Shown: positions 8,329 to 57,762, numbered from the stretch's first letter. The stretch is 64,000 bases of DNA from Gammaproteobacteria bacterium (GCA_036383255.1 DASVOS010000006.1:1-64000); one strand, 5' to 3'. Program-made: numbers and translations. Notes: a model not told the origin generated them from the letters alone.

Positions 8329-8369
8329 TTTATGGTGTGAGGGCTTGGGAGACAAGGGAGTGATGGCCC

Positions 8370-9002
8370 ATGCGGATACTCATCGCCGATGACCACACGC
8401 TGGTGCGGTCCGGGCTCACCGCGCTGATCGCGCGCCTACCGGAGATGGAGGTGGTGGCGGAGGCCGCCGACGGGCGCCAGGCGCTGCGCCTGGTGCGGGA
8501 CCTGCAGCCGGACATGGTGCTCATGGACATCGCCATGCCGGGGCTCAATGGCCTCGAGTCGGCTGAGCGCATCCACAACATCCATCCCCAGACCAAGATC
8601 ATCATCCTGTCCATGCACGCGAGCGAGGAGTACGTGGCGCAGGCGCTCAAGGCCGGCGCCTCCGGCTACCTGCTCAAGGACGCCGCCACCGCCGAGCTCG
8701 AGATGGCGCTGAAGTCCGTGGCGATGGGGCAGTTCTACCTGAGCCCCGCCATCTCGCGCCAGGTGGTGGATAACTTCCTGCGCGGAGGCCCCACGGGCCT
8801 GGACCTGCTCACGCCGCGCCAGCGCGAGATCCTGCAGCTCATCGCCGAAGGCAAGGGGACCCGCGAGATCGCCGATACCCTGCACCTCTCGGTGAAGACC
8901 GTGGAGACCCACCGTGCCCAGCTCATGGAGCGGCTCGACATCCACGACGTGGTGGGCCTGGTCCGCTACGCCATGAAGAAGGGGCTGATCTCCTCCGAAT
9001 AG
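8370..9002 (+). CDS. NarL/LuxR-type response regulator
   Basis: A 210-residue two-domain regulator. The receiver (about 1-120) has the acidic pair D7/D8, phosphorylation site D53 in LMDIAMPG, and K103 in YLLKD. The C-terminal LuxR-type helix-turn-helix (about 146-205) reads LTPRQREILQLIAEG and SVKTVETHRAQLMERL. It follows the multi-PAS kinase by 41 nt, so the two form a two-component system. Targets are unknown; inverted TCAGGGA repeats lie just downstream at 9044-9072 and may be a binding site. Confidence 0.94.
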   Translation: MRILIADDHTLVRSGLTALIARLPEMEVVAEAADGRQALRLVRDLQPDMVLMDIAMPGLNGLESAERIHNIHPQTKIIILSMHASEEYVAQALKAGASGYLLKDAATAELEMALKSVAMGQFYLSPAISRQVVDNFLRGGPTGLDLLTPRQREILQLIAEGKGTREIADTLHLSVKTVETHRAQLMERLDIHDVVGLVRYAMKKGLISSE

Positions 9003-9043
9003 GCCCAGACCCCGCGCAGGGCGGCCTCCCGCCGGCCCTCATA

Positions 9044-9072
9044 TCAGGGAATCCCTGAGACACAATCAGGGA
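9044..9072. promoter_or_regulatory. triple TCAGGGA repeat, candidate operator
   Basis: TCAGGGA (9044-9050) and its inverse TCCCTGA (9052-9058) form an odd palindrome. A third TCAGGGA (9066-9072) follows 22 bp after the first, two helical turns away on the same face. It lies between the response regulator gene and the lone receiver gene. It could be a binding site for the NarL-type regulator, or a hairpin ending its transcript. Confidence 0.45.
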
Positions 9073-9224
9073 AGCCCCAATGCCCCCCGTCCCCCGGAAC
9101 GCGCACATTGGCACCGTACCCGAAGCCTGTGCGCGACCAAGACTAAAGGACCCCGCATAAGGACGCGATCGTGCAGGCTCGGGGCATCCGGAGGGATGCA
9201 ATGCAGACCGGGGAGAAGAGACCG

Positions 9225-9584
9225 ATGCGCACGATACTGGTGGATGACTATCCGCCGCTGCTTTCCGCGCTGACCACCTTGCTGCGCACCTATGACGGTG
9301 TCGAGATCGTGGGCCGCGCCCACACCGGCGGAGACGGGCTCAAGCTGGCCGATGAACAGGAACCGGACCTGGTGCTGGTGGACTTCACTATGCCGGACAT
9401 GAACGGGCCCGCGGTCACCCGCAAGCTCAAGTCCCGGAAATCGCCGCCGAAAGTGGTGGTCATGTCTTTCCATGCGGAACCGGAGTATCGTGAGATGGCC
9501 CTGGATGCGGGGGCGGACGCCTACCTGGTGAAGTCCGACCTGTATCAGGAGCTGATGCCGCTGCTGAAGCGACTCTGCACCTGA
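9225..9584 (+). CDS. single-domain response regulator (receiver only)
   Basis: A 119-residue CheY-like receiver with no output domain. The acidic pair is in MRTILVDDY (D7/D8), the phospho-acceptor is D53 in LVDFTMPD, and the conserved Lys is in AYLVKSD. I chose the ATG at 9225 because GGGAGAAGAG lies at the right distance; earlier ATGs at 9171 and 9201 are in frame. It sits between the NarL-type system and the c-di-GMP protein that starts 25 nt downstream, so it may pass phosphorylation to that protein or act as a phosphate sink. Both roles are inference. Confidence 0.85.
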   Translation: MRTILVDDYPPLLSALTTLLRTYDGVEIVGRAHTGGDGLKLADEQEPDLVLVDFTMPDMNGPAVTRKLKSRKSPPKVVVMSFHAEPEYREMALDAGADAYLVKSDLYQELMPLLKRLCT

Positions 9585-9609
9585 GCCCCAGCGCTTCCAA
9601 GGTACAAGG

Positions 9610-11544: not shown

Positions 11545-11651
11545 GCCCTCCGGGGACAAGCTGATAACATGACCGTCCAGGCCCTTCAGGGGGGCTTGGG
11601 ACCGTCCACACGTCGCGCCCGCGGCGCGCCAGAGGCAGGCAGCCAAAGTCC

Positions 11652-13748
11652 ATGAAGAAAGCACTGAAGATAACCGGCATCGTCCTGGGAATCCTCGTGC
11701 TCGTGGTCATCATGCTGGCGGTGGCCCTGCCGTTCCTGATCAACCCCAACAGCTTCAAGGACGACATCGCGCGCCTGGTCAAGCAGAAGACCGGCCGCGA
11801 GCTCGCCATCCAAGGCGACATCAAGCTCTCCATCTTCCCCTGGCTCGGCATGCAGATCGGACCCATGGAGCTGTCCAACGCCAAGGGCTTCGGCGGCGTG
11901 CCGTTCGCCTCCATCAACGAGACCGACGTGCACGTGCGCTTCTGGCCGCTGCTGCACCGGCGCGTCGAGGTGGGCGCGGTCAAGCTCGACGGCCTCAACC
12001 TCGACCTCGAGCACGACGCCCAGGGCCGCAACAACTGGCAGGACATCAGCGAGCACCTGGCCCGCGCCTCCGCCAAGGGCGGGAGCGCGGACGAGGAAGA
12101 GAGCAACGTGGACCTCAGCGTGGCCGGCGTCAGCGTCACCGACAGCCAGGTGCGCTGGACCGACGCCGAGAAGCACAAGCAGTACACCATCAGCGACTTC
12201 ACCCTCAAGCTCGGCGCCTTCGCCTCGGCCAAGCCGCTGTCGGTGGAATCGGGTTTCGACTTCACCGGCACCAACCCGGCGGTGCAGGGCCACGTGGACT
12301 TCAGCGGTACCGCCACCGCCGACCTGGAGCGCCATCTCTATACGGCGGACGACGCCAAGCTCGAGATGCAGGCCAAGGGCGACGCGGTGCCCGGCGGCGA
12401 GGTGGACGCGGTGCTGCGCTGGCAGCACCTGGCGTTCAACCAGGAGCAGGGCAGCCTCGCGCTAAACGGCCTCGACGCCGGTGCCTACGGCATGCGCTTC
12501 CAGCTCGAGGCCCAGGGCAAGGATGTGCTCAAGGACGCGAGCTTCACCGGCAGCGCCAAGCTGGCGCGCTTCTCGCCGCGCGACACGCTCAAGGCCATGG
12601 GCCACGCCGGCGTCGCCGAGACCCGCGACCGCGGCGCCTTCGGCAACGCCTTCGGCAGCTTCAGCTTCGTGGCGGACGCGGGCTCCGCCGCCCTGAGCGG
12701 CCTCGACTTCACGCTCGACGACACCCATCTCACCGGCCGCGCCGCGATCAAGGATTTCAAGACCCTGGCCATGTCCTACGACCTCAACGTGGACAGGCTC
12801 GACGCCGACCGCTACCTCCCGCCCCAGCAGCTCGGCACGCCCGACAAGCCTCGCGAGGAGGTGGACGTGGACAAGGTGGGCATCCCGTTGCGCACGTTGC
12901 GCGCGCTGGAGATGGACGGCCACCTGCACATCGGCAGCTTCAAGTTGCTCAACGTCCAGACCAGCGACATGGACGTGGGCATCAGCAGCCACGACGGCCT
13001 CGCCCACGTGCAGCCGCTCAGCGCCAGGCTCTACGGCGGCGGCATCGACGGCGACATCCAGGTGGACGCACGCAAGCGCGTGGACGCACGCGGCCTGGAG
13101 GCGGATCCCACCGTGAGCGAGACGCTCAACCTCAAGGGCGTGCAGGTGGCGGGCCTCGCGCAGGACCTGTTCAAGACCGACAAGCTCTCCGGCACCATCG
13201 ACCTCACCAGCTCCACCCGCGGCACCGGCCGCCTGGTGGGGCAGCTGCGCCAGAGCCTGAACGGGCGCGCCAGCTTCGCTATCCGCAACGGCGCGCTCGA
13301 GGGCGTGAACGTGTGGGACGCCATCGCCCGCGCCTATGCGCGGGTGAAGGGCCAGAAGCCGCCGCCGCCGGCCCCGCCGCGCACCGAGTTCGCGGACATG
13401 CACGGCACCGCCACCCTCACCAAGGGCGTGATGTACAACAAGGACTTCAGCGCCGCGCTGCCGTTCCTGAACCTGTCCGGCGCCGGCAAGCTCGGCCTCG
13501 CCGACCTCACGGTGGACTACAGCCTCAAGGGCCGCGTCACCGGCACGCCGAAGCTCGGCACCGACCTCTCGGGCCTCAAGGGCGCGACGCTGCCGCTGCA
13601 CATCGGCGGCACCCTCGGCCACTTGAGCGTGCAGCCGGACCTGGGCGAGGCCGCCAAGGGCAAGCTCGACGACCTCAAGAAGAAGGCCGAGGACAAGGTC
13701 AAGGACAAGCTCCAGGACCTCCTCGGCAGCAGCAGCGGCGGGGAATAG
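11652..13748 (+). CDS. AsmA-family protein
   Basis: A 698-residue protein with one N-terminal membrane helix (about residues 5-28) and a long periplasmic part. The AsmA pattern shows in NPNSFKDDIARLVKQKTGRELAIQGDIKLSIFPWLG near 35-70 and a C-terminal AsmA_2-like stretch (about 490-660) with LKGVQVAGLAQDL and GRASFAIRNGALEGVN. The extreme C terminus is Lys/Asp rich and helical. AsmA proteins are now viewed as bridge-like lipid transporters or helpers of outer-membrane assembly. It lies upstream of the START-like gene and mutY; asmA-mutY-yggX is an order also known from Pseudomonas. Confidence 0.9.
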   Translation: MKKALKITGIVLGILVLVVIMLAVALPFLINPNSFKDDIARLVKQKTGRELAIQGDIKLSIFPWLGMQIGPMELSNAKGFGGVPFASINETDVHVRFWPLLHRRVEVGAVKLDGLNLDLEHDAQGRNNWQDISEHLARASAKGGSADEEESNVDLSVAGVSVTDSQVRWTDAEKHKQYTISDFTLKLGAFASAKPLSVESGFDFTGTNPAVQGHVDFSGTATADLERHLYTADDAKLEMQAKGDAVPGGEVDAVLRWQHLAFNQEQGSLALNGLDAGAYGMRFQLEAQGKDVLKDASFTGSAKLARFSPRDTLKAMGHAGVAETRDRGAFGNAFGSFSFVADAGSAALSGLDFTLDDTHLTGRAAIKDFKTLAMSYDLNVDRLDADRYLPPQQLGTPDKPREEVDVDKVGIPLRTLRALEMDGHLHIGSFKLLNVQTSDMDVGISSHDGLAHVQPLSARLYGGGIDGDIQVDARKRVDARGLEADPTVSETLNLKGVQVAGLAQDLFKTDKLSGTIDLTSSTRGTGRLVGQLRQSLNGRASFAIRNGALEGVNVWDAIARAYARVKGQKPPPPAPPRTEFADMHGTATLTKGVMYNKDFSAALPFLNLSGAGKLGLADLTVDYSLKGRVTGTPKLGTDLSGLKGATLPLHIGGTLGHLSVQPDLGEAAKGKLDDLKKKAEDKVKDKLQDLLGSSSGGE

Positions 13749-13805
13749 CCACGGACGCCGCCGGGTCCTCCTCCCACGGAGCACGGCTGCGGAGACCTCA
13801 AGGCG

Positions 13806-14414
13806 ATGCGTGAGTTGGCCCTGATCCTGGCCCTCGGTGTCGCGGCGCTGCCGCCCGCGGCGGGCGCCGCGGACTTCCATTCCCTCGAGGTCAGCCGGGA
13901 CGCCGGCCGCTACCGGGTGCAGGCGGACCTGTACCTGGCCGCGCCGCCGGATGCGGTGTACGCGGTGCTCACGGACTACGCACACCTGACGCGCATCTCG
14001 CCCAGCATCCGCGTCAGCCGCCTGGTGAAGCAGCTCGACCCGGACACGGCGCTGGTGTATACCGACAGCCGCATCTGCGCGCTGTTCCTCTGCCGCCACA
14101 TCCAGGGGATGCAGAAGTTCAGCCGCACTCCGCCCGGGGATCTCGCTGCGGTGGTGCTGCCGGAACAGAGCAACCTCAAGATGGGCGAGAGCCACTGGCA
14201 CCTGGAGGCGGAGGGCAAGGGCACGCGCATGCGCATGGAACTCACGCTGGAACCCTCCTTCTGGGTGCCTCCGCTCATCGGCTCGGCCCTGGTGGCCCAC
14301 AGCCTCAAGACCGAGGGGCGCCGTTCCGCCGACGGCGTCGAGCGGCTGGCGCGGGAGCGCGCGCATCTGCCGTCCATGGACGATTATGAGGACGAGGCAG
14401 GCGAGGATGAGTGA
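13806..14414 (+). CDS. exported START/SRPBCC-like protein
   Basis: A 202-residue protein with a signal peptide (cleavage near AAGAAD, about residue 22) and a helix-grip SRPBCC fold, as in polyketide cyclase/START families ([44 protein letters not shown]). Such folds bind hydrophobic ligands. The ligand is unknown; the periplasmic location next to an AsmA-like gene makes a lipid possible. Its stop overlaps the mutY start by 8 nt, so the two are co-translated. The C terminus is very acidic. Confidence 0.8.
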
Positions 14415-15462
14415 GCGCCGCACTGGGCGCGGTTTCGCCGCGCGGCTGCTCGCCTGGCACGCAGGCCACGGCCGCCACGACCTGCCCTGGCAGAAGCGCC
14501 GTACGCCCTATCGCGTGTGGGTGTCGGAGATCATGCTGCAGCAGACCCAGGTGGCGACGGTCATCCCCTACTACACGCGGTTCATGCAGCGCTTCCCGGA
14601 CGTCCAGGCGCTGGCGGACGCGCCGCTGGACGAGGTGCTGCACCTATGGACCGGCCTCGGCTACTACGCCCGTGCCCGCAACCTGCAGAAGGCGGCGCAG
14701 GCGATCCGCGATGCGCACGGCGGGCGCTTCCCGAAAGACATGGAGGCGGTGCAGGCGCTGCCGGGCATCGGCCGCTCCACGGCCGGCGCGATCCTCGCCC
14801 TCTCCACCGGCCAGCGGCATCCGATCCTGGACGGCAACGTGAAGCGCGTGCTCGCGCGCCACGGCGCCGTGGCGGGCTGGCCCGGTGCGAAACGGGTGGA
14901 GGAGAAGCTCTGGGCGCTGGCGGAGCGCCACACCCCGGAAGCCAAGGTCGCGGATTACACCCAGGCCGTCATGGACCTCGGCGCCACCGTCTGTACCCGC
15001 AGCAGCCCGCGCTGCGGCGAGTGCCCGGTGGCGGCGGATTGCGCCGCGCGCAGGCTCGGCAGGCAGACGAAGTTCCCGGCCCCGAAACCGCGCAAGGCGC
15101 TGCCGGTGAGACGCACCCGCATGCTGATGCTGGTCGCGCAGGATGCGGTGCTCCTGGAAAGGCGTCCGCCGGCAGGCGTCTGGGGCGGCCTGTGGGGCTT
15201 CCCGCAGGTGGATGTGGATGTAGACGTGGCGGCATGGTGCCGGGAACGCTTCGGCAAGCCGCCGCGCTCCGTGCGCGAGCACCCGGCGCTGCGCCACACC
15301 TTCAGCCACTTCCACCTGGACATCGAACCCTTGGAGCTCGCGCTTCCGGCCGCCGCAGCGGTGCGGGAGGAGGGGAGCCGCTGGCATCCCCTGGGCGAGA
15401 CGCCGCGCCTCGGGCTCGCGGCACCGGTGAAGCGGCTGCTCGAGACGTTGGTACAGGACTAG
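14407..15462 (+). CDS. mutY: A/G-specific adenine glycosylase MutY
   Basis: A 351-residue base-excision repair enzyme that removes adenine opposite 8-oxoguanine. It shows the catalytic Glu region EIMLQQTQV, the helix-hairpin-helix [13 protein letters not shown], catalytic Asp in LDGNVKRVL, and the 4Fe-4S cysteines in the C-x6-C-x2-C-x5-C pattern near residue 197. A C-terminal NUDIX-like domain that checks 8-oxoG ends with [13 protein letters not shown]. The ATG at 14407 overlaps the previous stop; an in-frame start at 14386 is less likely. yggX follows after 13 nt, as in many gammaproteobacteria. Confidence 0.96.
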
Positions 15463-15475
15463 CATGGAGAGGACG

Positions 15476-15751
15476 ATGACGCGGACGGTGCAGTGCGTGT
15501 TGCTGAAGCAGGACCTGCCGGGGCTGCCACGGCCGCCCTATCCGGGGGCGCTGGGCCAGCGCATCTTCGAGCAGGTCTCCCAACAGGCCTGGCAGCAGTG
15601 GCTGCGCCACCAGACCATGCTCATCAACGAGTACCGGCTTTCGGTCATAGACCCGAAGTCGAGGAAGTTTCTAGAAGCCGAGATGGAGAAGTACTTTTTC
15701 GGCGGCGGTGAGGCGGCGAAGCCGGAGGGCTATACGCCGCCCGGCGGTTAG
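15476..15751 (+). CDS. yggX: Fe(2+)-trafficking protein YggX
   Basis: A 91-residue cytoplasmic protein of the YggX family, linked to iron handling and protection of iron-sulfur clusters, including that of MutY. Family marks are the near-N-terminal Cys7, [31 protein letters not shown] and the C-terminal EGYTPP. The ATG at 15476 is preferred because GGAGAGG lies just upstream; an ATG at 15464 is in frame. Its stop overlaps the stop of egtD on the other strand. Confidence 0.95.
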
Positions 15752-16737
15752 CCCTCGACCGACGTGAGATACGCCACGCAGAAGTAGCGCCTGTCGTCGG
15801 TCCACTGCCGCTCGATCTTCAGGCCCGCCTGTGCCGCCAGCGCCGCGAAACGTTCCGGCGTGTACTTGTGGGAACGCTCGCTCAGGATGTGCTCGCCGGC
15901 CCGGAACTGGAAGCGCTCACCCGCCACCGTCACCGCCTGCGCCATGCTGCTCACGAGGTGCATCTCGATACAGCCGGCCTTCTCGTTGTAGGCCGCGCGG
16001 TGGTGGAAGCGCGCGACGTCGAAGTCCGCGTCCAGCTCGCGGTTGATGCGCGCGAGGATGTTGAGGTTGAACTCGGCGGTCACGCCCGCCGCGTCGTCGT
16101 AGGCCCGTTCCAGCACCGCCCGGTCCTTGGCCATGTCCACGCCCACCAGCAGCGCGCCGTCCTCGCCGGCGAGCCGGCGCATGTGGCGCAGCAGCGCCGC
16201 CGCCTCGGCTGGCGCGAAGTTGCCGAGCGTGGAGCCGGGGAAGTAGACCGCGCTGCGGGCCGCCTCGCGCCGCGGCACCGGCAGCCGGAAGGCCTGGTTG
16301 AAGTCGGCGCACACCGGCAGCACCTCAAGGGCCGGGTACAGCCGGTTGAGCCGGTCGGCGGCCTGCACCAGGTGCTCGCGGGAGATGTCCACCGGTACGT
16401 AGGCCACCGGATCCCTGAGGTGCTCGAGCAGGAGGCGCGTCTTCACGCTGCTGCCGCTGCCCGGCTCCACCAGCAACACCCGCTCGCCCAGGGCCGCCGC
16501 CATGGCGCCCACGTGGGTCTCCATGATGCCGAGCTCGGTGCGGGTGAGGTAGTACTCCGGCAGCTCGCAGATCGCGTCGAACAGCTTGGAGCCCCGCGCG
16601 TCGTAGAAATACTTGCAGGGCAGGGTCTTCTGCCGCTCCGCCAGGCCCGCGAGCACCTCCTCGCACATCTCGTCGAGGCGCGGATGGTAATCGTGCAGGG
16701 TGATGGAGAGGGCCTGGGAGATCTGCATGTCACGCAT
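15748..16737 (-). CDS. egtD: L-histidine N(alpha)-methyltransferase EgtD
   Basis: A 329-residue SAM-dependent enzyme that trimethylates histidine to hercynine, the first step of ergothioneine synthesis. It carries the family N terminus ([22 protein letters not shown]), the SAM motif [10 protein letters not shown] (91-100), DFNQAF and FPGSTLGNF, and the C-terminal ERSHKYTPE segment. It overlaps the egtB stop by 8 nt, so both are one operon with egtB first. No egtA, egtC or egtE is in the window. Confidence 0.95.
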
Positions 16738-17998
16738 CCTTGGCGAGGCGCAGGCCGGCGAACTGCCAGCGCTGCTGCGGGTAGAAGAAGTTGCGGTAGC
16801 TGGGGCGCAGGTGGCCGGCGGGCGTCACGCAGGCGCCGCCCCTCAGCACCATCTGGTTGGCCATGAACTTGCCGTTGTACTCGCCGAGCGCACCGGCGGG
16901 CGGCCTGTAGCCGGGATAGGCCGAGTAGGCGCTGGCGGTCCACTCCCACACGTCGCCGTACATCTGCAGCGCGCCCTCGCCGGTGGCGGGCGCCGGCTGC
17001 GCGAGGCCGCTGTCCAGGAAGTTGCCGGCCAGCGGCTGTTCCGCCGCCAGGCTCTCCCATTCGGTCTCCCCGGGCAGGCGCGCGCCGGCCCAGCGGGCGA
17101 AGGCGTCCGCCTCGTACCAGCTGAGATGGCATACCGGCGCATCCCAGGCGATCTCGCGCGTGCCGCCGAGGGTGAACTCCGTGGCGAGGTCCTCCTGCCA
17201 GTAGAGCGGCCGCTGCCAGCCTTCCTTCTGCGACGTGGTCCAGCCGTCGGACATCCACAGCGCGGGCTCGCGGTAGCCGCCATCGCGGATGAAGTCCCGG
17301 TACTCGGCGTTCGTCACCGGCCGGTTCGCGAGCGCGTGGCCCGGAACCAGCGCGGCGTGCTGCGGCGTCTCGTTGTCGAAGGCGAAGCTCCCGCCGGCAT
17401 GGCCGATGGACACCTGTCCCGCGGGACGGGAGATGTATTTGAGTGCGGGTGCCCGGGCCGCCGCCACCTTCGGCAGCGGCCGCCAGGTGGGCTGTAGCGG
17501 ATTCAGGGAGAAGAGGTGCTTCACGTCCATGAGCAGCAGCTCCTGGTGCTGCTGTTCATGGTTGAGGCCGAGGGCGAGGAGCGCGGCGAGCTCTGCGTCG
17601 TCGCCGGCCGCATCCTCCAGGAGGTGCTGCATGTGATGGTCCACATGTGCCCGGTAGGCCAGCACCTCCGCCGCTGCGGGACGCGAGAGCAGGCCGCGCT
17701 GGGGCCGCGGGTGCATGCCGCCGACGCTCTGGTAGTAGGAATTGAAGAGGTAGGCGAAGTCCGGATGGAACGGCCGGTAACCCGGCATGCGCGGCGAGAG
17801 CAGGAAGGTCTCGAAGAACCAGCTGGTGTGGGCCAGGTGCCACTTGGCCGGGCTGGCGTCGGGCATGCTCTGCAGGGCCATGTCCTCGGGCCCGAGGCTG
17901 CGGCACAGGTCCTCCGTGAGCGCACGCACCGCGGCGTAGCGTCTCTCGGGCGCCGTCCCGGGGGCGGGAGCGGCCGTGTGGCGGGCCTGGCTGTTCAT
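16730..17998 (-). CDS. egtB: ergothioneine sulfoxide synthase EgtB
   Basis: A 422-residue non-haem iron enzyme that joins hercynine to a thiol donor with oxygen. The N-terminal DinB-like domain carries the iron ligands: a His in WHLAHTSW (about 54-57) and H147/H151 in NHEQQHQELL. The C-terminal FGE-sulfatase-like domain has GEYNGKFMANQMVLRGG and ends with [20 protein letters not shown]. The ATG at 17998 is favoured over an in-frame start at 18040. With no egtC nearby the thiol may be cysteine rather than gamma-glutamylcysteine; this cannot be told from sequence alone here. Confidence 0.94.
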   Translation of the reverse strand: MNSQARHTAAPAPGTAPERRYAAVRALTEDLCRSLGPEDMALQSMPDASPAKWHLAHTSWFFETFLLSPRMPGYRPFHPDFAYLFNSYYQSVGGMHPRPQRGLLSRPAAAEVLAYRAHVDHHMQHLLEDAAGDDAELAALLALGLNHEQQHQELLLMDVKHLFSLNPLQPTWRPLPKVAAARAPALKYISRPAGQVSIGHAGGSFAFDNETPQHAALVPGHALANRPVTNAEYRDFIRDGGYREPALWMSDGWTTSQKEGWQRPLYWQEDLATEFTLGGTREIAWDAPVCHLSWYEADAFARWAGARLPGETEWESLAAEQPLAGNFLDSGLAQPAPATGEGALQMYGDVWEWTASAYSAYPGYRPPAGALGEYNGKFMANQMVLRGGACVTPAGHLRPSYRNFFYPQQRWQFAGLRLAKDA

Positions 17999-18061
17999 CC
18001 TTCGAGTCTCTCCCGCAGGGTAGTGGCGGTCCCGGGCCAAGTCAAAACGGCCGTCAACCCC

Positions 18062-18090
18062 TTGACCCGGCTTGCTTTCGCCGGTCTAAT
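18062..18090 (+). promoter_or_regulatory. predicted promoter of tRNA-Phe
   Basis: TTGACC (18062-18067), 17-bp spacer and TCTAAT (18085-18090). It lies in the gap divergent to egtB and about 90 nt upstream of tRNA-Phe, giving a leader of about 80 nt that RNase P would remove. Confidence 0.65.
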
Positions 18091-18178
18091 ACCCGCCCTT
18101 CGCCGGGTTTATTACGCCTATCCCGCTTTAACGGATGCAGGAAAGCCTGCATGGCGAAGAGTCAAAAGCAGACAAGAT

Positions 18179-48321: not shown

Positions 48322-50202
48322 ATGGCTCCCTTGCAGGGCTACCTCAAGTACCTGTTCCTGGCGGCGGCGGTACCGTTACTGGTGTTGCTGCTCGTGTTGT
48401 TCGCGCGCGCGCCGGTAGTGCAGGACTTCGAGGCCTGGGGCTACGACCTCCTGGTGCACGCCGCCGTGCGCACCCCGGCCGACCCCGACATCCTGGTGGT
48501 GGACTTCGACAACGCGCTGCTGCAGAAGCTGCGACGCTACCCGGTGCCGCGCGGCACCGTGGCGGAGGTGCTGCAGAAGGTGGCGGCGGACCGTCCCGAC
48601 CTCATCGGCTTCGACCTCCTGCTCTCGGAGCGCCGCGGCGCGGAGGAGGACAAGCGCCTCGCCGCGGCCATGGCCGGGGCAGGCGACGTGGTGGTGGCGG
48701 CCCAGCTCGGCAGCGACGACATCCCCGCCAGCGAGCCCCTGCCCGAGTACTGCGTGCTGGACGCGGCCAACCCCTCCAGCTGCAAGGAGGGCGCGGCGCT
48801 CGCCGCCGGCTTCATCAACATGCCGGTGGATGACGACGGCTTCGTGCGGCGCATGTTCCTGCTGCCGCCGCGCGGCTACCCGGCGCTGCCGTTCCCGGTG
48901 GTGCTCGCCAGCAACCGCCTGCGCCTGCCGCTCACGCCCTGCGGCACGGACGTGTGCCTGGGCGGGCGGCGCATCGCGCTGGATGGCAGCAGCCTGCGCA
49001 CCGCGCTCATCGGCTGGCCCAGCGGGTTGCCGCGGGTGATCCCCGCCGGCGAGGTGCTGGCCGGGCGCGTGCCTGCCGGCACCTTCACCGGCCGCGTGGT
49101 GCTCATCGGCCAGAGCAGCGCCGCCGGCAACGACCTGCACTTCACCCCCCAGTTCCGCTTCCGCCGGCCCGACGGCAGCCGGCTGCAGATGCCGGGCACG
49201 CTGGTGCACGCGGCCGCGCTGCAGACGCTGCTCGAGGGCGGCGCGATCCGGCCGATTACCACCATTTCGAGTTTCGTGTTGGCCGGCGCCTACATGGCGC
49301 TGGCCCTGTTCCTGATCCTGTTCGCCGCGCCGCGCTGGAGCCTGCCGGCCGTGCTGCTGCTGATGCTGGCGGCGGCCTTCATCGCCGGCTGGCTGTTCGG
49401 GCACCGCCAGCTCTGGCAGCCTTTCATGCTCTGCGAGCTCGGCCTCCTGCTCAGCCTGCCTGCGGGTTTCGGCTACCGCTTCGTGGAGGAACGTTGGCTC
49501 AAGGGCCGCGCCGAGCGCGAGCGCCACGAGCTCATGGGCCTGTTCTCGCGCTACGTGTCGCCGCAGGTGGCGGCCGAGATCTGGTCGCGGCGCGCCGAGA
49601 TCACGCTGGCCGGCGAGGAGCGCTACGCCACTGTGATGTTCACCGACATCCGCAACTTCACCGCCATCACCGCCGGCAAGCCGCCCGGCGAGGTGCTGCT
49701 GTGGCTGAACGGCTACCTCACCGAGATGAGCGCGGTGATCGAGGCGCACCACGGCTTCCTCAACAAGTTCATCGGCGACGGCATCATGGTGCTGTTCGGC
49801 GTGCCGCTGAGCGGCGGGCCGGCGGAGGACGCGGTGCACGCGCTGCAGACCGCGCTCGACATGCTCCAGCGGGTGGAGGAGTGGAACCGCCGCCACCGCG
49901 GCGACCCCCGCTACCCCGAGGTCAGCATCGGCATCGGCATCCACAGCGGCAAGGTGACGGCCGGCAACGTGGGCTCCGACACCCGCGTCGAGTACTCGGT
50001 GATCGGCGCGGCAGTGAACCTGGCCTCGCGCCTGGAGAGCCTCACCAAGGAGTTCCACGTGCCGGTGATCATGACCGCCGACACCGAGTTCCTGGTGCGC
50101 GGGCGCTTCAGGACCCGCGACCTGGGGGAGACCCAGGTACGCGGTTTCGAGGGCAGCGTCCGGGTCTATACTGTCGAGGGGGAGATCAAGAGAGATACCT
50201 AG
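48322..50202 (+). CDS. CHASE2-domain adenylate/guanylate cyclase
   Basis: A 626-residue membrane cyclase. An N-terminal helix (about 9-30) leads to an extracytoplasmic CHASE2 sensor (about 35-300, LLVHAAVRTPADPDILVVDFDN, FTGRVVLIGQSSAAGNDLHFTP), three membrane helices (about 310-385) and a cytoplasmic class III cyclase domain. Metal-binding Asp442 (FTDIRNFTAIT) and Asp486 (FLNKFIGDGIM) and the Asn and Arg in VIGAAVNLASRLE are present, so it should be active. YSVIG resembles class IIIb adenylate cyclases. The ATG at 48322 is chosen over a TTG at 48250; the ribosome site is weak. First gene of the TPR-CHAT cluster; the next gene starts 17 nt after its stop. Confidence 0.9.
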   Translation: MAPLQGYLKYLFLAAAVPLLVLLLVLFARAPVVQDFEAWGYDLLVHAAVRTPADPDILVVDFDNALLQKLRRYPVPRGTVAEVLQKVAADRPDLIGFDLLLSERRGAEEDKRLAAAMAGAGDVVVAAQLGSDDIPASEPLPEYCVLDAANPSSCKEGAALAAGFINMPVDDDGFVRRMFLLPPRGYPALPFPVVLASNRLRLPLTPCGTDVCLGGRRIALDGSSLRTALIGWPSGLPRVIPAGEVLAGRVPAGTFTGRVVLIGQSSAAGNDLHFTPQFRFRRPDGSRLQMPGTLVHAAALQTLLEGGAIRPITTISSFVLAGAYMALALFLILFAAPRWSLPAVLLLMLAAAFIAGWLFGHRQLWQPFMLCELGLLLSLPAGFGYRFVEERWLKGRAERERHELMGLFSRYVSPQVAAEIWSRRAEITLAGEERYATVMFTDIRNFTAITAGKPPGEVLLWLNGYLTEMSAVIEAHHGFLNKFIGDGIMVLFGVPLSGGPAEDAVHALQTALDMLQRVEEWNRRHRGDPRYPEVSIGIGIHSGKVTAGNVGSDTRVEYSVIGAAVNLASRLESLTKEFHVPVIMTADTEFLVRGRFRTRDLGETQVRGFEGSVRVYTVEGEIKRDT

Positions 50203-50219
50203 ACGTGGAGGGGATGACC

Positions 50220-50996
50220 ATGGCCCTGCGCATCGCGTTGCTGTCCCTGAGCCTTTACCTGCCCGTGGCACTGGCCGGTACGCCACCCGCGTCCACCGCC
50301 GCGCCGCCGGCCGCGGCCAAGCCCGCCAAGGCCGCGCCCGTGAAGAAGCCGCGGGTGGTGACGGTGCTCGCCGGATTCGACCTCCTCGACAAGGACGCGC
50401 TCAAGAAGCAGAGCATGGCGGCGGGCGCCTCCCGCGACCTCGGCACCGCGCCGGTGGCGCTGGCGCCGCGCCTCGGCAAGGTCTACGGCCTCACTCCCGA
50501 GTTCTGCTGGAACGGCGCGACCGGCGCCGGCCAGTACGTGTTCACCCTGTGGGACGACGCCCAGAACGCCGTCTACCGCGGCGACGTGAAGGGCTACCGC
50601 TTCCGCTATCCCGCCGGCGCGACGGCGCTGGTGCCGGGCAAGACCTACTTCTGGACCGTGGAGACGCCGCCCAGCATGTCCGGCAGCCAGCAGTCGGAGC
50701 CGGTGGGCTTCGTGGTGGTGTCCGGCGAGCAGCGCGCGGCCGTCGAGCAGAAGCTCGCGGCGGCGGGCAGCGGCGAGGGCTACGACGCCGAGCTCGCTCG
50801 TGCCCGGGCCTACACCGACGCGCGCCTGTGGTACGACGCGGTGGGCGCCTACCTCGCGCTCATGCACAAGTACCCGGCCAAGGCGGAACTGTACGATGCG
50901 CGCGGCACCCTGTTCGCGCAGTTGCCGGTGACGCGCAAGGACGCGGACCAGGACTTCGAGCACGCGGAGCAGTTGCGCGCCGGCACCACGCCCTAG
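50220..50996 (+). CDS. exported beta-sandwich protein, DUF928/FN3-like
   Basis: A 258-residue periplasmic protein. A signal peptide ends near VALAG (about residue 19), then a Pro/Ala/Lys linker (about 25-45), a beta-rich domain (about 85-170) whose strands resemble fibronectin III or DUF928 (EFCWNGATGAGQYVFTLWDDAQNAVYRG, LVPGKTYFWTVET), and a helical TPR-like end (about 180-258). I know DUF928 genes beside CHASE2 and CHAT genes in cyanobacteria, but whether this is a true member needs a profile search. The ATG at 50220 has GGAGG 7 nt upstream. It lies between the cyclase and the CHAT genes, so a structural or ligand-binding role in that system is likely. Confidence 0.75.
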   Translation: MALRIALLSLSLYLPVALAGTPPASTAAPPAAAKPAKAAPVKKPRVVTVLAGFDLLDKDALKKQSMAAGASRDLGTAPVALAPRLGKVYGLTPEFCWNGATGAGQYVFTLWDDAQNAVYRGDVKGYRFRYPAGATALVPGKTYFWTVETPPSMSGSQQSEPVGFVVVSGEQRAAVEQKLAAAGSGEGYDAELARARAYTDARLWYDAVGAYLALMHKYPAKAELYDARGTLFAQLPVTRKDADQDFEHAEQLRAGTTP

Positions 50997-51025
50997 CCCA
51001 TCCGCGTCCCCCGCCGGAGTCATCC

Positions 51026-54000
51026 ATGCGCGCCCTGTCTGCCGCCTTTTTCCTCATCCTCTGCGGCTGCGCCGCGGACGCGCCCAAGCCCGTGGACTGG
51101 CAGGCCGAGCGCATCCAGGTGTATGACCTGGGCTCCGCGGCCCATTACCGGGAAGCCCTGGCGCCGGCGCGGCGCGAACGGGCCGGTGCGGAGCAGGCGC
51201 TGCCGCCGGCGTCCCCGGAGCTCGCCGGCGCGCTCATGGACCTCGCCTACGTGGAGCGGGAATCCGGCGCCTACGCCGATGCCGCGGCGCATTACCGCCG
51301 GGCGCTGGAGATCCGCCGCGCCGCCTTCGGCGCGCAGAGCGCCGAGGCCGCCGAGAGCCTGGCCGCGCTGGCGCGGGACGAATACCTGCAAGCGGACCTG
51401 CCTTCGGCGGTGGCCGACTTCAAGGCGGCGCTCGAGGCCCAGGAGAAGGCGGGCGCGCCGGACGACGTGCTCGCGGTCACCCTCACCGACTACGCCCGCT
51501 GCCTCGCGGACTACAACGAGCTGGAAGCGGCCCAGGGGCTCATGGACCGGGCCCTGGCCATCCGCGAGAAGATGCCGGGGCCGCGCCAGATCGACCTCGC
51601 CCATGCCCTCAACCAGGCCGCCTTCCTCGCCATCATGAACGGCGATGACGAGACCGCCGCCAAGCTCCTCAAGCGCTCCCTCGGCATCCTCGACGTCCCC
51701 GGCGGGCTGGAGCGCCCGGAGCTCGCCTACGCGCTCGACCTCTCGGGCAATGTGGACCTGGACAGCGGTGCGTATCCCGACGCAGAGCCCAAGTTCCGCC
51801 GCGCCCTCGGGATATTCACCCGCGTGTACGGGCCGGACCACCAGGAGGTGGCGAACGCGCTCAACGACATCGCCCGCGCCTTCGACGACGAGGGGCGCTA
51901 CGCCGAGGCGGAGGACTACTACAACCGCTCCATCGCCGCCTACCGGCGCGCCATGGGCGGGCAGAACATCAACCTCGCCAGCGTCATGGACAACCTGGCG
52001 CAAATGCAGAGCACCGCCGGCAAGTTCCGCGAGGCGGAGGCCAACTTCAAGCGCGCCATCGCCATCGACGAGGCCGGCTGGACCGCGGACCGCATCAACG
52101 CCGCCTACGACTACAACAACCTGGCGCAGCAGTACCGGGAGCTCGGCCGCTACGCGGAAGCGGAGCCGCTGATGCTCAAGGCCCTGGACATCTTCCAGCG
52201 GCGTCTGCCGCCGGACCACCCGAACATCGCCGTCATCCTCAACAACCTCTCGGTGCTGTACGTCGAGCAGCGGGACTTCGCCAAGGCCGAGCCCTACGCC
52301 AAGCGCTCGCTGGAGATGGGCGTGAAGGCGTTGGGGCCGGACAACCCGCAGGTGAGCACTGCCTACAACAGCCTCGCCCAGGTGTACGAAGGCCAGGGGC
52401 GCTATGCCGAGGCGGAGCCGCTGTACATCAAGGCCTATGAAATCGTGCGCAAGGCCCTGGGCCCGGGCCATCCGCTCACCGGCGAGGGCATCAACAATCT
52501 CGCCAACCTGTATGACCGGGAGGGCAAGTTCGCCCAGGCTGACAAGCTCTTTCCCCAGGCACTTGCGGTGCTGCGCAAGGCCTATGGGCCGCGCCACCCG
52601 CGCGTGCAGGAGACGCTCACCAACTACGCCGGTGAGCAGTACGCGGAAGGCCGTGATCCCGCCAAGGCGGGCGCGCTGTTCGATGAGTCCCTGGGCCTGC
52701 TCCACAGCATCTACGAGGAGCAGTTCGCCTACATGAACGAGCAGGACCGCCTGCAGTACTTCGCCCGCAGCCACGGCGACTTCCAGATCTACTACAGCTT
52801 CTGCCTCAAGAACCACGCGGCGCGCCCGGAGCTCGCCGGCAAGATGTACGACGTGCTGCTCTGGCAGAAGGGTCTCGTCGGCAACAGCATCGCGGCGCTG
52901 CGCGCCAAGATCGCCGCCAGCGGCGACCCCGAGGCGCTGGACCTCCTGGAGAAGCTCTCCGCCAGCAAGACCCGGCTGGCCAACCTCATCAACAACCCGG
53001 ACGGGGACCGGGCCGCCTGGCAGAAGGCGGTGGACCAGCAGCAGAAGGATGCGGACGACCTGGAGCGGCGGCTGCTCAGCCGTTCCGGCGCCCTGGCGCA
53101 GGACCGCAAGCTGCAAGCCGTCACCTGGCGCGACGTGCAGAAGGCGCTGAAGCCCGGCGAGGCCGCGGTGGAGATGGTGCACTTCCAGTTCGAGGATGGG
53201 CAGCGCTTCACCGACGACTATTACTATGTCGCTCTCGTGCTCACACCCCGGAGCCGCGGGCCGCAGTTCGTGGTGCTCGGCAAGTCCAGGGATCTCGAGT
53301 CCGCGCCCGTGGCGGACTACGCGGCGCGCATCCGCAAGTTCGGCGCAGCGGGCGGCACCGCTTTCTATGGCGCTTTCTGGCGGCCCCTGGAGGCGGCGCT
53401 CGGCAAGGCCACGCGCGTCTACCTCGCGGCGGACGGCATGCTCAACCAGGCCTCGCTCGGCATCGTCGCGGACGGCCAGGGCCGGCTGCTCATGGAGCGC
53501 TATGACCTGCGCCTCGTCACCAGCAGCCGCGACCTCCTGCGCCCGGCCTATGCGGGCGGCGCCGCCACGGCGGTGCTGGTGGGCGGGCCGCATTTCGATC
53601 TGCCGCCGGGGCAGTACCTCGCGGCGGTGGCCGGCCTGGATGCGAACTCCGCGCACGGGCAGAAACTGGCCCAGCGCGGCAGCCCCGATCCCGATCTCGC
53701 CATGGCGCGGGATGCTGCCGGTAAATGCCCACTGCCGGACACCGGCGTGCTGTGTCCGCTACCCGGCGCGGCAGCGGAGGTGGACGGCATCGGCGCCGAA
53801 CTCACCCGCGCCCGGTGGCAGCCCACGCTCTACCGGGACGACCAGGCTCTGGAGGAAGCGGTGAAGCAAGTGCGCCATCCGCGGGTGCTGCACCTCGCCA
53901 CCCACGGCTTCTTCCTGCCGGACCAGAAGGTCCTGAGCGAAGACCCCATGCTGCGCTCGGGCCTCTACTTCGCCGGCGCGGACAACACCCTCTCCGGAGC

Positions 54001-54376
54001 CATGCCGCCGGAGGGGGCGGACGACGGTGTGCTTACAGCCTACGAGGCCACGCAGCTGGACCTGGAGGGCACCGAGCTCGTGGTGCTCTCCGCCTGCGAC
54101 ACGGGCCTCGGCAGCAGCCAGAGCGGCGAGGGCGTGTTCGGGCTTAACCGCGCGCTGCAGGAAGCCGGCGCCCAGGCGGTGCTCATGAGCATGTGGTCCG
54201 TGCCGGACCAGGAGACCCGCGAGCTCATGCAGCTCTTCTACAAGAACTGGCTCGGTGGCATGGAGAAGCACGAGGCCCTGCGCCAGGCGGAGCTCGCCGA
54301 GCGGGACGTGGTGAAGCAGCGCTACGGCCACGACCTGCCTTACTACTGGGGCGCCTTCGTCATGGTGGGCCGTTGA
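51026..54376 (+). CDS. TPR-CHAT lipoprotein (caspase-like), copy 1
   Basis: A 1116-residue lipoprotein. The lipobox LCGC (Cys15) is followed by Ala, favouring outer-membrane attachment. Residues about 40-560 are TPRs of the 42-residue kinesin-light-chain type (for example NALNDIARAFDDEGRYAEAEDYY). A linker and a CHAT domain (about 690-1116) follow. The caspase dyad is present: His960 in LHLATHGFF and Cys1024 in VLSACDTGLG. CHAT proteases include separases' relatives and the TPR-CHAT protease of Craspase, but those are cytoplasmic; this one has an export signal. GGAG precedes the ATG. Its last 650 bp are nearly identical to copy 2, pointing to gene conversion. Confidence 0.92.
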   Translation: MRALSAAFFLILCGCAADAPKPVDWQAERIQVYDLGSAAHYREALAPARRERAGAEQALPPASPELAGALMDLAYVERESGAYADAAAHYRRALEIRRAAFGAQSAEAAESLAALARDEYLQADLPSAVADFKAALEAQEKAGAPDDVLAVTLTDYARCLADYNELEAAQGLMDRALAIREKMPGPRQIDLAHALNQAAFLAIMNGDDETAAKLLKRSLGILDVPGGLERPELAYALDLSGNVDLDSGAYPDAEPKFRRALGIFTRVYGPDHQEVANALNDIARAFDDEGRYAEAEDYYNRSIAAYRRAMGGQNINLASVMDNLAQMQSTAGKFREAEANFKRAIAIDEAGWTADRINAAYDYNNLAQQYRELGRYAEAEPLMLKALDIFQRRLPPDHPNIAVILNNLSVLYVEQRDFAKAEPYAKRSLEMGVKALGPDNPQVSTAYNSLAQVYEGQGRYAEAEPLYIKAYEIVRKALGPGHPLTGEGINNLANLYDREGKFAQADKLFPQALAVLRKAYGPRHPRVQETLTNYAGEQYAEGRDPAKAGALFDESLGLLHSIYEEQFAYMNEQDRLQYFARSHGDFQIYYSFCLKNHAARPELAGKMYDVLLWQKGLVGNSIAALRAKIAASGDPEALDLLEKLSASKTRLANLINNPDGDRAAWQKAVDQQQKDADDLERRLLSRSGALAQDRKLQAVTWRDVQKALKPGEAAVEMVHFQFEDGQRFTDDYYYVALVLTPRSRGPQFVVLGKSRDLESAPVADYAARIRKFGAAGGTAFYGAFWRPLEAALGKATRVYLAADGMLNQASLGIVADGQGRLLMERYDLRLVTSSRDLLRPAYAGGAATAVLVGGPHFDLPPGQYLAAVAGLDANSAHGQKLAQRGSPDPDLAMARDAAGKCPLPDTGVLCPLPGAAAEVDGIGAELTRARWQPTLYRDDQALEEAVKQVRHPRVLHLATHGFFLPDQKVLSEDPMLRSGLYFAGADNTLSGAMPPEGADDGVLTAYEATQLDLEGTELVVLSACDTGLGSSQSGEGVFGLNRALQEAGAQAVLMSMWSVPDQETRELMQLFYKNWLGGMEKHEALRQAELAERDVVKQRYGHDLPYYWGAFVMVGR
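53726..54372 (+). repeat. near-identical tract with copy at 57112
   Basis: These 647 bp match 57112-57758 with no gaps and, by my count, about 20 mismatches (about 97% identity), nearly all silent. The tract begins abruptly at the KCPLPDTGVLC codons; just upstream the two genes differ in sequence and length. It encodes the catalytic half of the CHAT domain. Confidence 0.85.
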
Positions 54377-54399
54377 TATAACGAGAACGAGGAGGGGGT

Positions 54400-57300
54400 A
54401 TGCGCATCCGTCACGCGTCCGTCGTCCTTCTGCTGTCCCTGTCCGCCTGTGCGTCCGCGCCGCCCGCCGCGGCGCCGGACTGGAAAGCCCGCGCCGCCGA
54501 GCGTGAGGCTTACGAGCGCAAGGCGGATTACGTCCACGCCCTCGCCGCGGCGCGCCAGGAATACGCCGCCGCCCAGGCGGGCCTGCCCGCCGATTCCCCC
54601 GGGATGATGCAGGCGCTCTTGGACCTCGGCAGCGTCGAGGCCCGCTCGGGGCTCGGCTCAGAAGCGGAAGCGCATCTGCGCATGGCCCTGGACCTCGCCG
54701 CCCGGCAGCACGGCGCAGAGAGCCTCGAGGCGGCGCAGGCGCTCAGGCAGGTCGCCGCGAGCGAAGGCGCCCAGGCCAAGTGGGACGAGTCGGCGAGGGA
54801 CCTCAAGGCCGCGCTCGCGATCCTGGAGAAGCTGCCGGCGGCGGATGCCGCCGAGACCGCCCGCACCCGCGGCGACCTCGCCATGGCCGAGTACAACCTG
54901 GGGGACATGGACGCGGCGGACGCGGACTACAAGCGCGCACTCGCGGTGCAGGAGCAACTGCCGGGCGAGGAGGGCAGGGAAGACCTGGCCGAGACCCTCA
55001 CGGGCCAGGGCCTTCTGTTCCTCGTGAACGGCGACAACGACTCCGCGGGCAAGTCGTTGGACCGCGCCCTCAAGATCCTTGACCAGCCCGGCAAGCCCGC
55101 GACCCCGACGCTGGCCTACGCGCTGGACTACCTCGGCAACGTCAACCTCAACGAGGGCCGCAACGAGGAGGCGCTGGCGCTGTTCCAGCGCGCGCTCAAG
55201 ATAGACGAGCAGAGCCTGGGGCCGGACAGCGTGGACGTCGCCAACGCGCTCAACGACCTGGCCCGCTGCTACGACAACATGGGCGTGTATGCGAAGTCGG
55301 TGCCGCTCTACCAGCGCTCCATCGCCACCTATATAAAGGTGCAGGGCGAGGAGAACGGCAACGTCAGCCAGGTGTCCGGCAACCTCGCCGGCACCTACGA
55401 CTACCTGGGCGACTACGCCCGCTCCGAGGCGCTCTACCGCAAGGCCCTGGCGCTGGACGAGAAGCTGCTCGGCCCGGACAACATGCAGACCGCCTACGAC
55501 CTCAACAACATGGCGGTGCTGTACCGGGACATGGGCCGCTTCGCGGACGCGATCCCGCTCATGGAGCGCGCCACCGCCGTGTTCCAGAAGATCTACCCGC
55601 CGGACCACCCCAACATCGCCATCGCCCTCAGCAACCTCGCGGTGCTCTACGCCCACGAGCGCGACTACGCCAAGGCCCGCGACCTCGCCCAGCGCGCGCT
55701 CGCCATGTCGGTGAAGACCGAGGGCCACGACCACCCGGACGTAGCCGCCCGGCTCAACGTGCTGGCGGAGATCGCCGAAGACGAAAAGCACTATCCGGAA
55801 GCGGAGAAGCTCTACAAGGAGAGCGTGGCGGTGTACCGCAAGACCTTGGGGCCCGGCCACACCATCACCGCCCAGCAGAGCATCAACCTCGGCAAGTTCT
55901 ACGGCCGGCGCAGCCGCTTCGCCGAGGCGGCGCCGCTGTTCGACAGCTCGCTCACGGCGATCCGCAAGGCCAACGGCGAGGCGAGCGATGTCGCCACCAC
56001 CGCCGCGTTCATGGCGGGCGTCGAGCACTACGCCCAGGGGGACCGGCGCGGCGCCGGGCGCCTCTTCGGCGAATCGCTGGAGCGGCTGCACCAGGCCATG
56101 GCGACCCAGCTCCCCTACATGAACGAGCGGGACCGCCTGCAGTTCCTCGCCAACGTGGCCGAGCGCTTCCCCGAGTACTACAGCTACTGCGTGAAGTACC
56201 ACGGCGAGGACCCCGGGCTCGCCGGCCGCATGTACGACGTGCTGCTCTGGCAGAAAGGCCTGGTGGGCGGCAGCATCGCGGCGCTGCGCGCCAAGATCGC
56301 CGCCAGCGGCGACCCCGAGGCCCTCGCGCTGCTGGACAAGCTCTCCGCCGGCAAGACCAGGCTCGCCACGCTGCTCAACTCCCCCGGCGAGGACCGCGCC
56401 GCCTGGCAGGCCGAGGTGCAGCGGCAGCAGGCCGCCACCGAGGACCTGGAGCGGGCCCTTGCACAACGTTCTGCAGCGCTGTCGGAGGACCGCCGCCTGC
56501 AGGCCGTCACCTGGGAACAGGTGCGGGACGGACTCAAGCCCGGCGAGGCGGCGGTGGAGATGGTGCGCTTCCCCTACAGCGAGGGCTGGGCCGAGGTGAG
56601 GGCGGACTACTACGTCGCGCTGGTGGTGACGCGCGAGACGCGCACCGCGCCCCAGCTCATCCTGCTGGGCAAGTCCACGGACCTGGAAGCCGCGCCGGTG
56701 GCGGACTACGCCACGCGCATCCGCAAGTTCGGCGCGGCCGGCGGCCACGCCTTCTACGACGCGTTCTGGAAGCCGCTCGAACCGGCCCTGGCCGGCGCCA
56801 CCCGCGTGTACCTCGCCGCGGACGGCGTACTGAACCAGGCCTCCCTCGGCATCGTCGCGGACGGGCAGGGGCGCCTCCTGCTGGAACGCTATGACCTCGA
56901 GCTCGTGCCCAGCACCCGCGACGTGCTGCGCGCCGCTTCCAGCACCGCCTCCCGCGACGCGGTGCTCATGGGCGGCCCGGACTTCGCCCTCAAGGGCGGC
57001 AGTTATCTCGCCGCAGTGGAGAAGCTCGGCCAGGGCGCTCAAGCCGGGCCGCGCTATGCGATGGACCCGCTGCAACCCACCCGCGCGGTGCGCGGCGGAG
57101 AGGTCGGCAAGTGCCCACTGCCGGACACCGGCGTGCTCTGTCCGCTACCTGGTGCGGCAGCGGAGGTGGACGGCATCGGCGCCGAACTCACCCGCGCCCG
57201 GTGGCAGCCCACGCTCTACCGGGACGACCAGGCTCTGGAGGAAGCGGTGAAGCAAGTGCGCCATCCCCGGGTGCTGCACCTCGCCACCCACGGCTTCTTC

Positions 57301-57762
57301 CTGCCGGATCAGAAGGTCCTGAGCGAAGACCCCATGCTGCGCTCGGGCCTGTACTTCGCCGGCGCGGACAACACCCTCTCCGGAGCCATGCCGCCGGAGG
57401 GGGCGGATGACGGCGTGCTTACAGCCTACGAGGCCACGCAGCTGGACCTGGAGGGCACCGAGCTCGTGGTGCTCTCCGCCTGCGACACCGGTCTTGGCAC
57501 CAGCCAGAGCGGCGAGGGCGTGTTCGGCCTCAACCGCGCGCTCCAGGAAGCCGGCGCCCAGGCGGTGCTCATGAGCATGTGGTCCGTGCCGGACCAGGAG
57601 ACCCGCGAGCTCATGCAGCTCTTCTACAAGAACTGGCTCTCCGGCATGGAGAAGCACGAAGCCCTGCGCCAGGCGGAGCTCGCCGAGCGGGACGTGGTGA
57701 AGCAGCGCTACGGCCACGACCTGCCTTACTACTGGGGTGCCTTCGTCATGGTGGGTCGCTAG
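54400..57762 (+). CDS. TPR-CHAT lipoprotein (caspase-like), copy 2
   Basis: A 1120-residue paralogue of copy 1. Lipobox LSAC (Cys17) is followed by Ala, again favouring the outer membrane. Kinesin-light-chain-type TPRs span about 50-560 (YEKRADYVHA-like first helices, then ALNDLARCYDNMGVYAKSVPLYQ), then a CHAT domain (about 690-1120) with His964 in LHLATHGFF and Cys1028 in VLSACDTGLG. The middle (about 600-860) is clearly related to copy 1, the TPR part is more diverged, and the last 216 residues differ at only about two sites (GSSQ/GTSQ, WLGG/WLSG). GAGGAGGGGG precedes the ATG, 23 nt after copy 1. Different TPRs with the same protease suggest different partners or triggers. Confidence 0.92.
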   Translation: MRIRHASVVLLLSLSACASAPPAAAPDWKARAAEREAYERKADYVHALAAARQEYAAAQAGLPADSPGMMQALLDLGSVEARSGLGSEAEAHLRMALDLAARQHGAESLEAAQALRQVAASEGAQAKWDESARDLKAALAILEKLPAADAAETARTRGDLAMAEYNLGDMDAADADYKRALAVQEQLPGEEGREDLAETLTGQGLLFLVNGDNDSAGKSLDRALKILDQPGKPATPTLAYALDYLGNVNLNEGRNEEALALFQRALKIDEQSLGPDSVDVANALNDLARCYDNMGVYAKSVPLYQRSIATYIKVQGEENGNVSQVSGNLAGTYDYLGDYARSEALYRKALALDEKLLGPDNMQTAYDLNNMAVLYRDMGRFADAIPLMERATAVFQKIYPPDHPNIAIALSNLAVLYAHERDYAKARDLAQRALAMSVKTEGHDHPDVAARLNVLAEIAEDEKHYPEAEKLYKESVAVYRKTLGPGHTITAQQSINLGKFYGRRSRFAEAAPLFDSSLTAIRKANGEASDVATTAAFMAGVEHYAQGDRRGAGRLFGESLERLHQAMATQLPYMNERDRLQFLANVAERFPEYYSYCVKYHGEDPGLAGRMYDVLLWQKGLVGGSIAALRAKIAASGDPEALALLDKLSAGKTRLATLLNSPGEDRAAWQAEVQRQQAATEDLERALAQRSAALSEDRRLQAVTWEQVRDGLKPGEAAVEMVRFPYSEGWAEVRADYYVALVVTRETRTAPQLILLGKSTDLEAAPVADYATRIRKFGAAGGHAFYDAFWKPLEPALAGATRVYLAADGVLNQASLGIVADGQGRLLLERYDLELVPSTRDVLRAASSTASRDAVLMGGPDFALKGGSYLAAVEKLGQGAQAGPRYAMDPLQPTRAVRGGEVGKCPLPDTGVLCPLPGAAAEVDGIGAELTRARWQPTLYRDDQALEEAVKQVRHPRVLHLATHGFFLPDQKVLSEDPMLRSGLYFAGADNTLSGAMPPEGADDGVLTAYEATQLDLEGTELVVLSACDTGLGTSQSGEGVFGLNRALQEAGAQAVLMSMWSVPDQETRELMQLFYKNWLSGMEKHEALRQAELAERDVVKQRYGHDLPYYWGAFVMVGR
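57112..57758 (+). repeat. near-identical tract with copy at 53726
   Basis: Second member of the pair described at 53726-54372. It ends at the stop codon region; sequences after the stops are unrelated, so the identity is limited to coding sequence. Confidence 0.85.

Follow-up and report, generated by a model that had tools for sequence, protein, structure and literature searches.

Gene content of the locus

The window, by which we mean the whole stretch of 64,000 nucleotides analysed here (GCA_036383255.1 DASVOS010000006.1:1-64000, Gammaproteobacteria bacterium), contains four co-directional plus-strand genes whose ends leave the gaps of 17, 29 and 23 nt given in a preliminary description of this DNA. 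The first (48322..50202) encodes a predicted CHASE2 adenylyl cyclase of 626 aa, identified by the Pfam CHASE2 and Guanylate_cyc domains, and the second (50220..50996) a putatively exported DUF928 protein of 258 aa, identified by Pfam DUF928. The remaining two (51026..54376 and 54400..57762) encode TPR-CHAT lipoproteins 1 and 2 (1116 and 1120 aa; hereafter CHAT1 and CHAT2), each with a lipobox, TPRs, a C-terminal CHAT domain (residues 778-1116 and 782-1120) and a His/Cys dyad. Profile searches with the four families that the preliminary description had named, CHAT, CHASE2, DUF928 and Guanylate_cyc, matched every one of them in its expected protein.

The genes beside the operon appear ordinary: the four flanking genes scanned encode a pirin, an OMP, an MFS protein and an HD-domain protein. 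As had been noted, no cas gene is present among them, nor does a Cas7-11 effector gene accompany the TPR-CHAT genes within this set, and a link to Craspase or another CRISPR system was rejected on this ground and because both CHAT proteins carry lipoboxes. With a GC content of 69-72% the operon exceeds its flanks (65-69%) by little, and a recent foreign island was therefore also rejected, although none of the 18 other genomes of the order gave a DUF928 homologue.

The CHASE2 adenylyl cyclase

The product of the first gene matches CHASE2 (1.5e-42) and Guanylate_cyc (6.7e-26) in Pfam and is composed of a TM segment (10-28), a CHASE2 domain predicted to be extracytoplasmic (21-330), more TM segments at about 318-359 and a class III cyclase domain (436-619), an arrangement that agrees with the extracytoplasmic CHASE2 sensor proposed earlier. 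Both of the metal-binding Asp residues previously described as intact are present (D442 and D486), as are K482/S559 and N566/R570. With CHASE2, a cyclase domain, both metal-binding Asp residues and the Asn/Arg pair, the protein has the features of a class III adenylyl cyclase with CHASE2. The K482/S559 pair presumably fits ATP as the substrate, and the product is predicted to be cAMP rather than cGMP. The cyclases of four other DUF928 loci (L039, L040, L042 and L044) have Asp in the column of K482, either because the alignment has slipped there or because they use another substrate.

The window cyclase scores highest against cyclases of its own genome and against those of other gammaproteobacterial DUF928 loci. 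Five CHASE2 proteins are encoded by the window genome altogether; on contig 16 (L049, 6285-8623) another CHASE2 cyclase stands immediately before a bacterial SH3-domain protein, and on contig 13 (L167, 444-1337) an FHA-fused soluble class III cyclase precedes a two-partner-secretion pair by ∼6 kb. PADLOC matched the window cyclase to PycC at the domain level only (4.8e-22), and none of its Pycsar effector models was matched by the other three operon proteins; given also the CHASE2 sensor, assignment of the operon to Pycsar was rejected.

The DUF928 protein and the likeness of its model to MtxA

The second gene product is a divergent member of DUF928 (PF06051; 2.1e-8, 34.6 bits against a cut-off of 26), with 19-24% identity to its relatives and no homologue found in 18 other genomes of the order. 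Its export, claimed in the preliminary description, is supported by a predicted signal peptide, which is followed in the structural model by an Ig-like beta-sandwich at about 80-166 and by C-terminal TPR-like helices, five in number, at 169-253. This model, which is of modest quality (pLDDT 58), has as its top VIA match the MtxA structure 4z29 (Z 8.8, 162 of 176 residues), with both domains aligned; the next matches had similar Z values and covered the Ig/Fn3 part only.

MtxA (PDB 4Z29) is an exported protein with a signal peptide, an Ig-like domain and a TPR domain, and was described as specific to magnetotactic bacteria; a CHASE2-adenylate cyclase gene comes after mtxA in its cluster, and the report names no CHAT gene (PMC4439547). 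At the sequence level, the DUF928 protein gave no match to the MtxA profiles (PF22433/PF22121) in Pfam at E 0.1, hhalign against MtxA-type profiles returned a weak but collinear alignment (probability 13%), and a PDB sequence search with the DUF928 profile yielded nothing meaningful. Judging from the model, DUF928 probably fills the slot of MtxA in this operon, with homology unconfirmed by sequence.

Two predicted TPR-CHAT lipoproteins with intact catalytic dyads

Both large proteins are strong matches to CHAT (PF12770; 4.2e-62 and 210.7 bits for CHAT1, 4.5e-64 and 217.1 bits for CHAT2, cut-off 24) and carry 7-8 TPR_12 stretches each. The best PDB matches of these TPRs are kinesin light chains, in line with the type assigned to them earlier. 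The N termini, MRALSAAFFLILCGC and MRIRHASVVLLLSLSAC, have the n-region, hydrophobic stretch and lipobox Cys within the first ∼30 residues that characterise bacterial lipoprotein signals, and acylation is predicted at Cys15 of CHAT1 (LCGC followed by Ala) and Cys17 of CHAT2 (LSAC followed by Ala), the lipoboxes that had been recognised before. An Ala at the +2 position of a lipobox is compatible with an outer-membrane location as a general rule, and both proteins may be located there.

The motifs HLATHG and SACDTG place the dyads at H960/C1024 in CHAT1 and H964/C1028 in CHAT2, as previously assigned, and neither the His nor the Cys varies across 46 aligned relatives of these CHAT proteins from several phyla. 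A model of the last 556 residues of CHAT1 (pLDDT 83.6) matched best the Craspase TPR-CHAT chains (Csx29; 7y84_C, Z 29.6, 374 residues), followed by separase and then by the anti-sigma factor DdvA (Z 21), gingipains, SAVED-CHAT and caspases. The Csx29-like caspase fold thus bears out the placing of the dyad that structure prediction had been proposed to check, and a sequence search of the PDB with the 46-sequence CHAT profile likewise recovers Csx29, the Cys motifs being aligned. The window proteins, with the catalytic dyad intact, are putative proteases. They share with Csx29 a TPR array followed by a CHAT caspase fold with a His/Cys dyad; Csx29, however, acts inside the cell with Cas7-11 and RNA, whereas the window CHATs are predicted to be exported.

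The preliminary description had set this exported pair against cytoplasmic TPR-CHAT proteins. The export and lipidation signals stand, but the contrast does not: most TPR-CHAT proteins read with complete N termini, from Pseudomonadota, Bacteroidota and Cyanobacteria, begin with a signal-type hydrophobic segment, and we conclude from these predicted signals that export is the rule for TPR-CHAT proteins and not an oddity of the window locus. A few others are lipoprotein-like (L083, L084 and L085). HetF of Anabaena, a membrane protein of the divisome, also combines a CHAT domain with TPRs and is membrane-associated, but its CHAT domain is N-terminal, it has one TM segment and a role in division and in the formation of heterocysts, and no cyclase partner is described for it (PMC8406250).

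Gene conversion of the catalytic cores

A feature missing from the preliminary description is the near-identity of the two CHAT genes over their C-terminal ∼217 codons. The final 217 codons in CHAT1 (53722..54376, plus strand) and in CHAT2 (57108..57762, plus strand) are about 97% identical in nucleotide sequence, with a sharp 5′ edge near 53714; upstream, identity falls to about 50-75% save for one short, highly similar patch around codons 605-645. Because identity at four-fold sites is 0.88 inside the tract and 0.53 outside it (p 1e-12), we attribute the tract to gene conversion, or to recombination, acting on the catalytic core. The same test rejects protein constraint alone as the cause, and an assembly duplication was rejected since 21 of the 217 codons differ, 19 of them silently. 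Only the catalytic cores are homogenised by gene conversion, and the TPRs diverge. Diverging TPR receptors joined to a shared protease core would fit two input specificities with one output, and the pair lends itself to comparing receptor specificities while the protease stays the same.

Neighbouring copies in a Chitinophagaceae tandem array are homogenised likewise (0.66 versus 0.26, p 5e-8), the pairs at L023 and L160 show the same pattern more weakly, and some other pairs lack it. The array itself (L009, a Chitinophagaceae MAG, 726-18154) consists of six exported TPR-CHAT genes in a row, with C termini homogenised between neighbours and the last gene truncated at the end of the locus.

Recurrence of the gene set

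The preliminary description regarded conserved co-occurrence across Gammaproteobacteria as support for a system, and such co-occurrence was found. Among 274 genomes drawn evenly from the class, DUF928 was above cut-off in 9 and CHAT-C matches were present in 30; apart from the window genome itself, all DUF928 genomes (8/8) belonged to the remaining 29 genomes with CHAT (p 6e-9). A CHASE2-cyclase gene lay <5 kb from 7/9 of the DUF928 loci, on the same strand in all cases, and most of these 7 also had a CHAT gene. These gammaproteobacterial clusters (L037-L042 and L044) resemble the window in the adjoining DUF928 and CHASE2 cyclase genes and the exported CHAT, but most add TpsB and/or TpsA, several of them the TpsA/TpsB two-partner-secretion pair, and their CHATs are shorter, are not lipoproteins and belong to another branch of the CHAT tree. 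At two of them, DUF928 and a TPS-type protein are separated by an exported protein that is conserved and weakly matches a beta-helix (L039, 2974-3960; L040, 14425-15348).

In the phylum sample, the closest relatives of the window CHATs lie in an operon of a TPR-CHAT gene, a gene for an exported protein of 310-350 aa and a CHASE2-cyclase gene, with constant order and strand, and the middle gene matches Pfam MtxA_IG-like, DUF7354 and MtxA_C. A CHASE2-cyclase gene was found <5 kb away at 12/34 CHAT-selected loci, always on the same strand, and 10 of these 12 had an MtxA-type gene; the 34 loci are partly close relatives, and independent events are fewer than these counts. Thus, of the system first described, it holds that a TPR-CHAT and a beta-sandwich protein, both exported, recur together with a CHASE2 cyclase, but the cyclase is most often partnered by an MtxA-type protein and not by DUF928. 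The MtxA/CHASE2-adenylate cyclase operon of magnetotactic bacteria places an exported Ig-like and TPR protein beside a CHASE2 adenylyl cyclase, as the window may do with DUF928, and in many genomes an exported TPR-CHAT gene precedes it (L147, where the protein has 1475 aa, L141, L134, L149 and others). The window differs in having DUF928 for MtxA, in opening with the cyclase gene instead of ending with it, and in its pair of lipoprotein CHATs.

The module is real and widespread, and literature searches found no published description of the CHAT/CHASE2 pairing. What is new in the window is the twin CHAT lipoproteins and a sharp conversion tract restricted to their catalytic cores; the order cyclase-DUF928-CHAT-CHAT with both CHATs as lipoproteins was found in no other genome sampled, and a genome-wide peptide-pattern scan returned only distant Bacteroidota and Cyanobacteria loci and one Hydrogenedentes locus. 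In the CHAT tree the window CHATs lie on the side of the MtxA-type and Bacteroidota relatives, apart from those of the other gammaproteobacterial DUF928 loci. Because the window CHATs and the window cyclase thus have affinities to different loci, the module has probably been reshuffled.

A candidate protease-to-cAMP relay

We regard the chances as evenly balanced that the four genes form one envelope-signalling module, a protease/adaptor relay to cAMP that would be a local variant of the widespread one. Such a module would consist of an exported TPR-CHAT caspase-like protease, an exported Ig/TPR adaptor (MtxA-type elsewhere, DUF928 here) and an inner-membrane CHASE2 adenylyl cyclase. The lipid-anchored CHAT pair at the outer membrane would present two separate TPR superhelices as receptors for envelope ligands, joined to a common protease core. 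Csx29 is switched allosterically via its TPR region (PMC10028731), and by analogy, ligand bound to the TPRs may re-order the dyad. The activated protease might then cleave or release the DUF928 adaptor or another envelope protein, the altered adaptor would be read by the periplasmic CHASE2 domain, cAMP synthesis would change, and cAMP would reach intracellular cNMP-binding regulators.

Consistent with a relay are the operon and its domains, the co-occurrence, the MtxA-type middle gene, the match of the DUF928 model to 4z29, the invariant dyad, the precedent of DdvA and the 8 cNMP-binding proteins above cut-off in the window genome. Against it we count the weak hhalign probability, the low pLDDT of the DUF928 model (58), the separate position of the window CHATs in the CHAT tree, the lack of any sigma-70-like promoter found, the absence of a CHASE2-cyclase gene within 5 kb at 22/34 CHAT loci of the phylum set and 12/14 of the class set, and the deletion of mtxA in Magnetospirillum, which was without phenotype under standard conditions (PMC4439547). 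The more specific proposal, that an envelope-anchored TPR-CHAT pair whose cores are kept alike by conversion cleaves a DUF928/MtxA adaptor gating the CHASE2 adenylyl cyclase, is distinctly more tentative.

The nearest competitor, somewhat less probable than even this specific proposal, is that the CHATs mature or trim secreted surface proteins such as adhesins or filamentous proteins while the cyclase sets their expression, a case of co-regulation and not of relay. The relatives that cluster with TpsB (ShlB/POTRA) and TpsA (TPS domain) genes (L037, L038 and L042) are consistent with this idea, as is the presence of gingipains, which are secreted caspase-fold proteases, among the structural neighbours of CHAT1; however, the two-partner systems of the window genome are on other contigs, and the MtxA-type operons were without two-partner-secretion genes in the stretches read. 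It is rather unlikely that the CHAT domains are non-proteolytic envelope scaffolds or receptors that signal through binding alone. TPR superhelices are binding modules, and DdvA (PDB 8ROT, 8RW5), a transmembrane anti-sigma factor, has a CHAT-fold region within a transmembrane signalling protein, although DdvA has a sigma factor as its output, within a single polypeptide, and the output protein here is a separate cyclase; yet a His and Cys invariant in 46 relatives would be unexpected without catalysis, and it is exactly the catalytic core that gene conversion has kept.

Of these three alternatives, defence is the least supported. The preliminary description had suggested defence, self-recognition or programmed death, none of which is supported. 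In a defence or programmed-death system the CHATs would be triggered by phage or non-self signals to kill the cell, with cAMP as an alarm. CHAT proteases do function in CRISPR type III-E and SAVED-CHAT systems, both represented among the fold matches, and the cyclase has its domain-level match to PycC, but PADLOC yielded generic cyclase and TPR matches and no full system, so that a known defence system was rejected; the locus is without an effector gene among ordinary flanking genes, and extracytoplasmic locations are predicted for both CHATs, for DUF928 and for the CHASE2 sensor; taken together, these points make this reading improbable. That the genes are unrelated chance neighbours would account for the absence of this exact order from every other genome sampled, but is contradicted by the way such genes recur side by side in the same direction, in two forms, with their order and spacing fixed, and we consider it very improbable.

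If the relay exists, it would unite magnetotactic and non-magnetic Proteobacteria in one protease-to-cAMP signalling class, with a common role for MtxA and DUF928. The module would open two questions to testing together, the role of MtxA and the ligand of CHASE2 domains.

Exported TPR-CHAT proteins with other outputs

Work on CHAT proteases has treated them as executioners inside the cell (Craspase, SAVED-CHAT); the sequences examined here reveal a large branch of predicted exported CHATs, linked to a transmembrane cyclase through a third gene of Ig/TPR type. Exported TPR-CHAT proteins seem to be a sensor/protease front end that may be coupled to various transmembrane outputs. A link of CHAT to ECF54 sigma factors has been noted (PMC8999054). 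At three loci (L087, L089 and L091), exported TPR-CHAT genes have ECF sigma-70 region 2 genes nearby in place of a cyclase gene, and an unassigned small protein, possibly an anti-sigma factor, is also encoded there.
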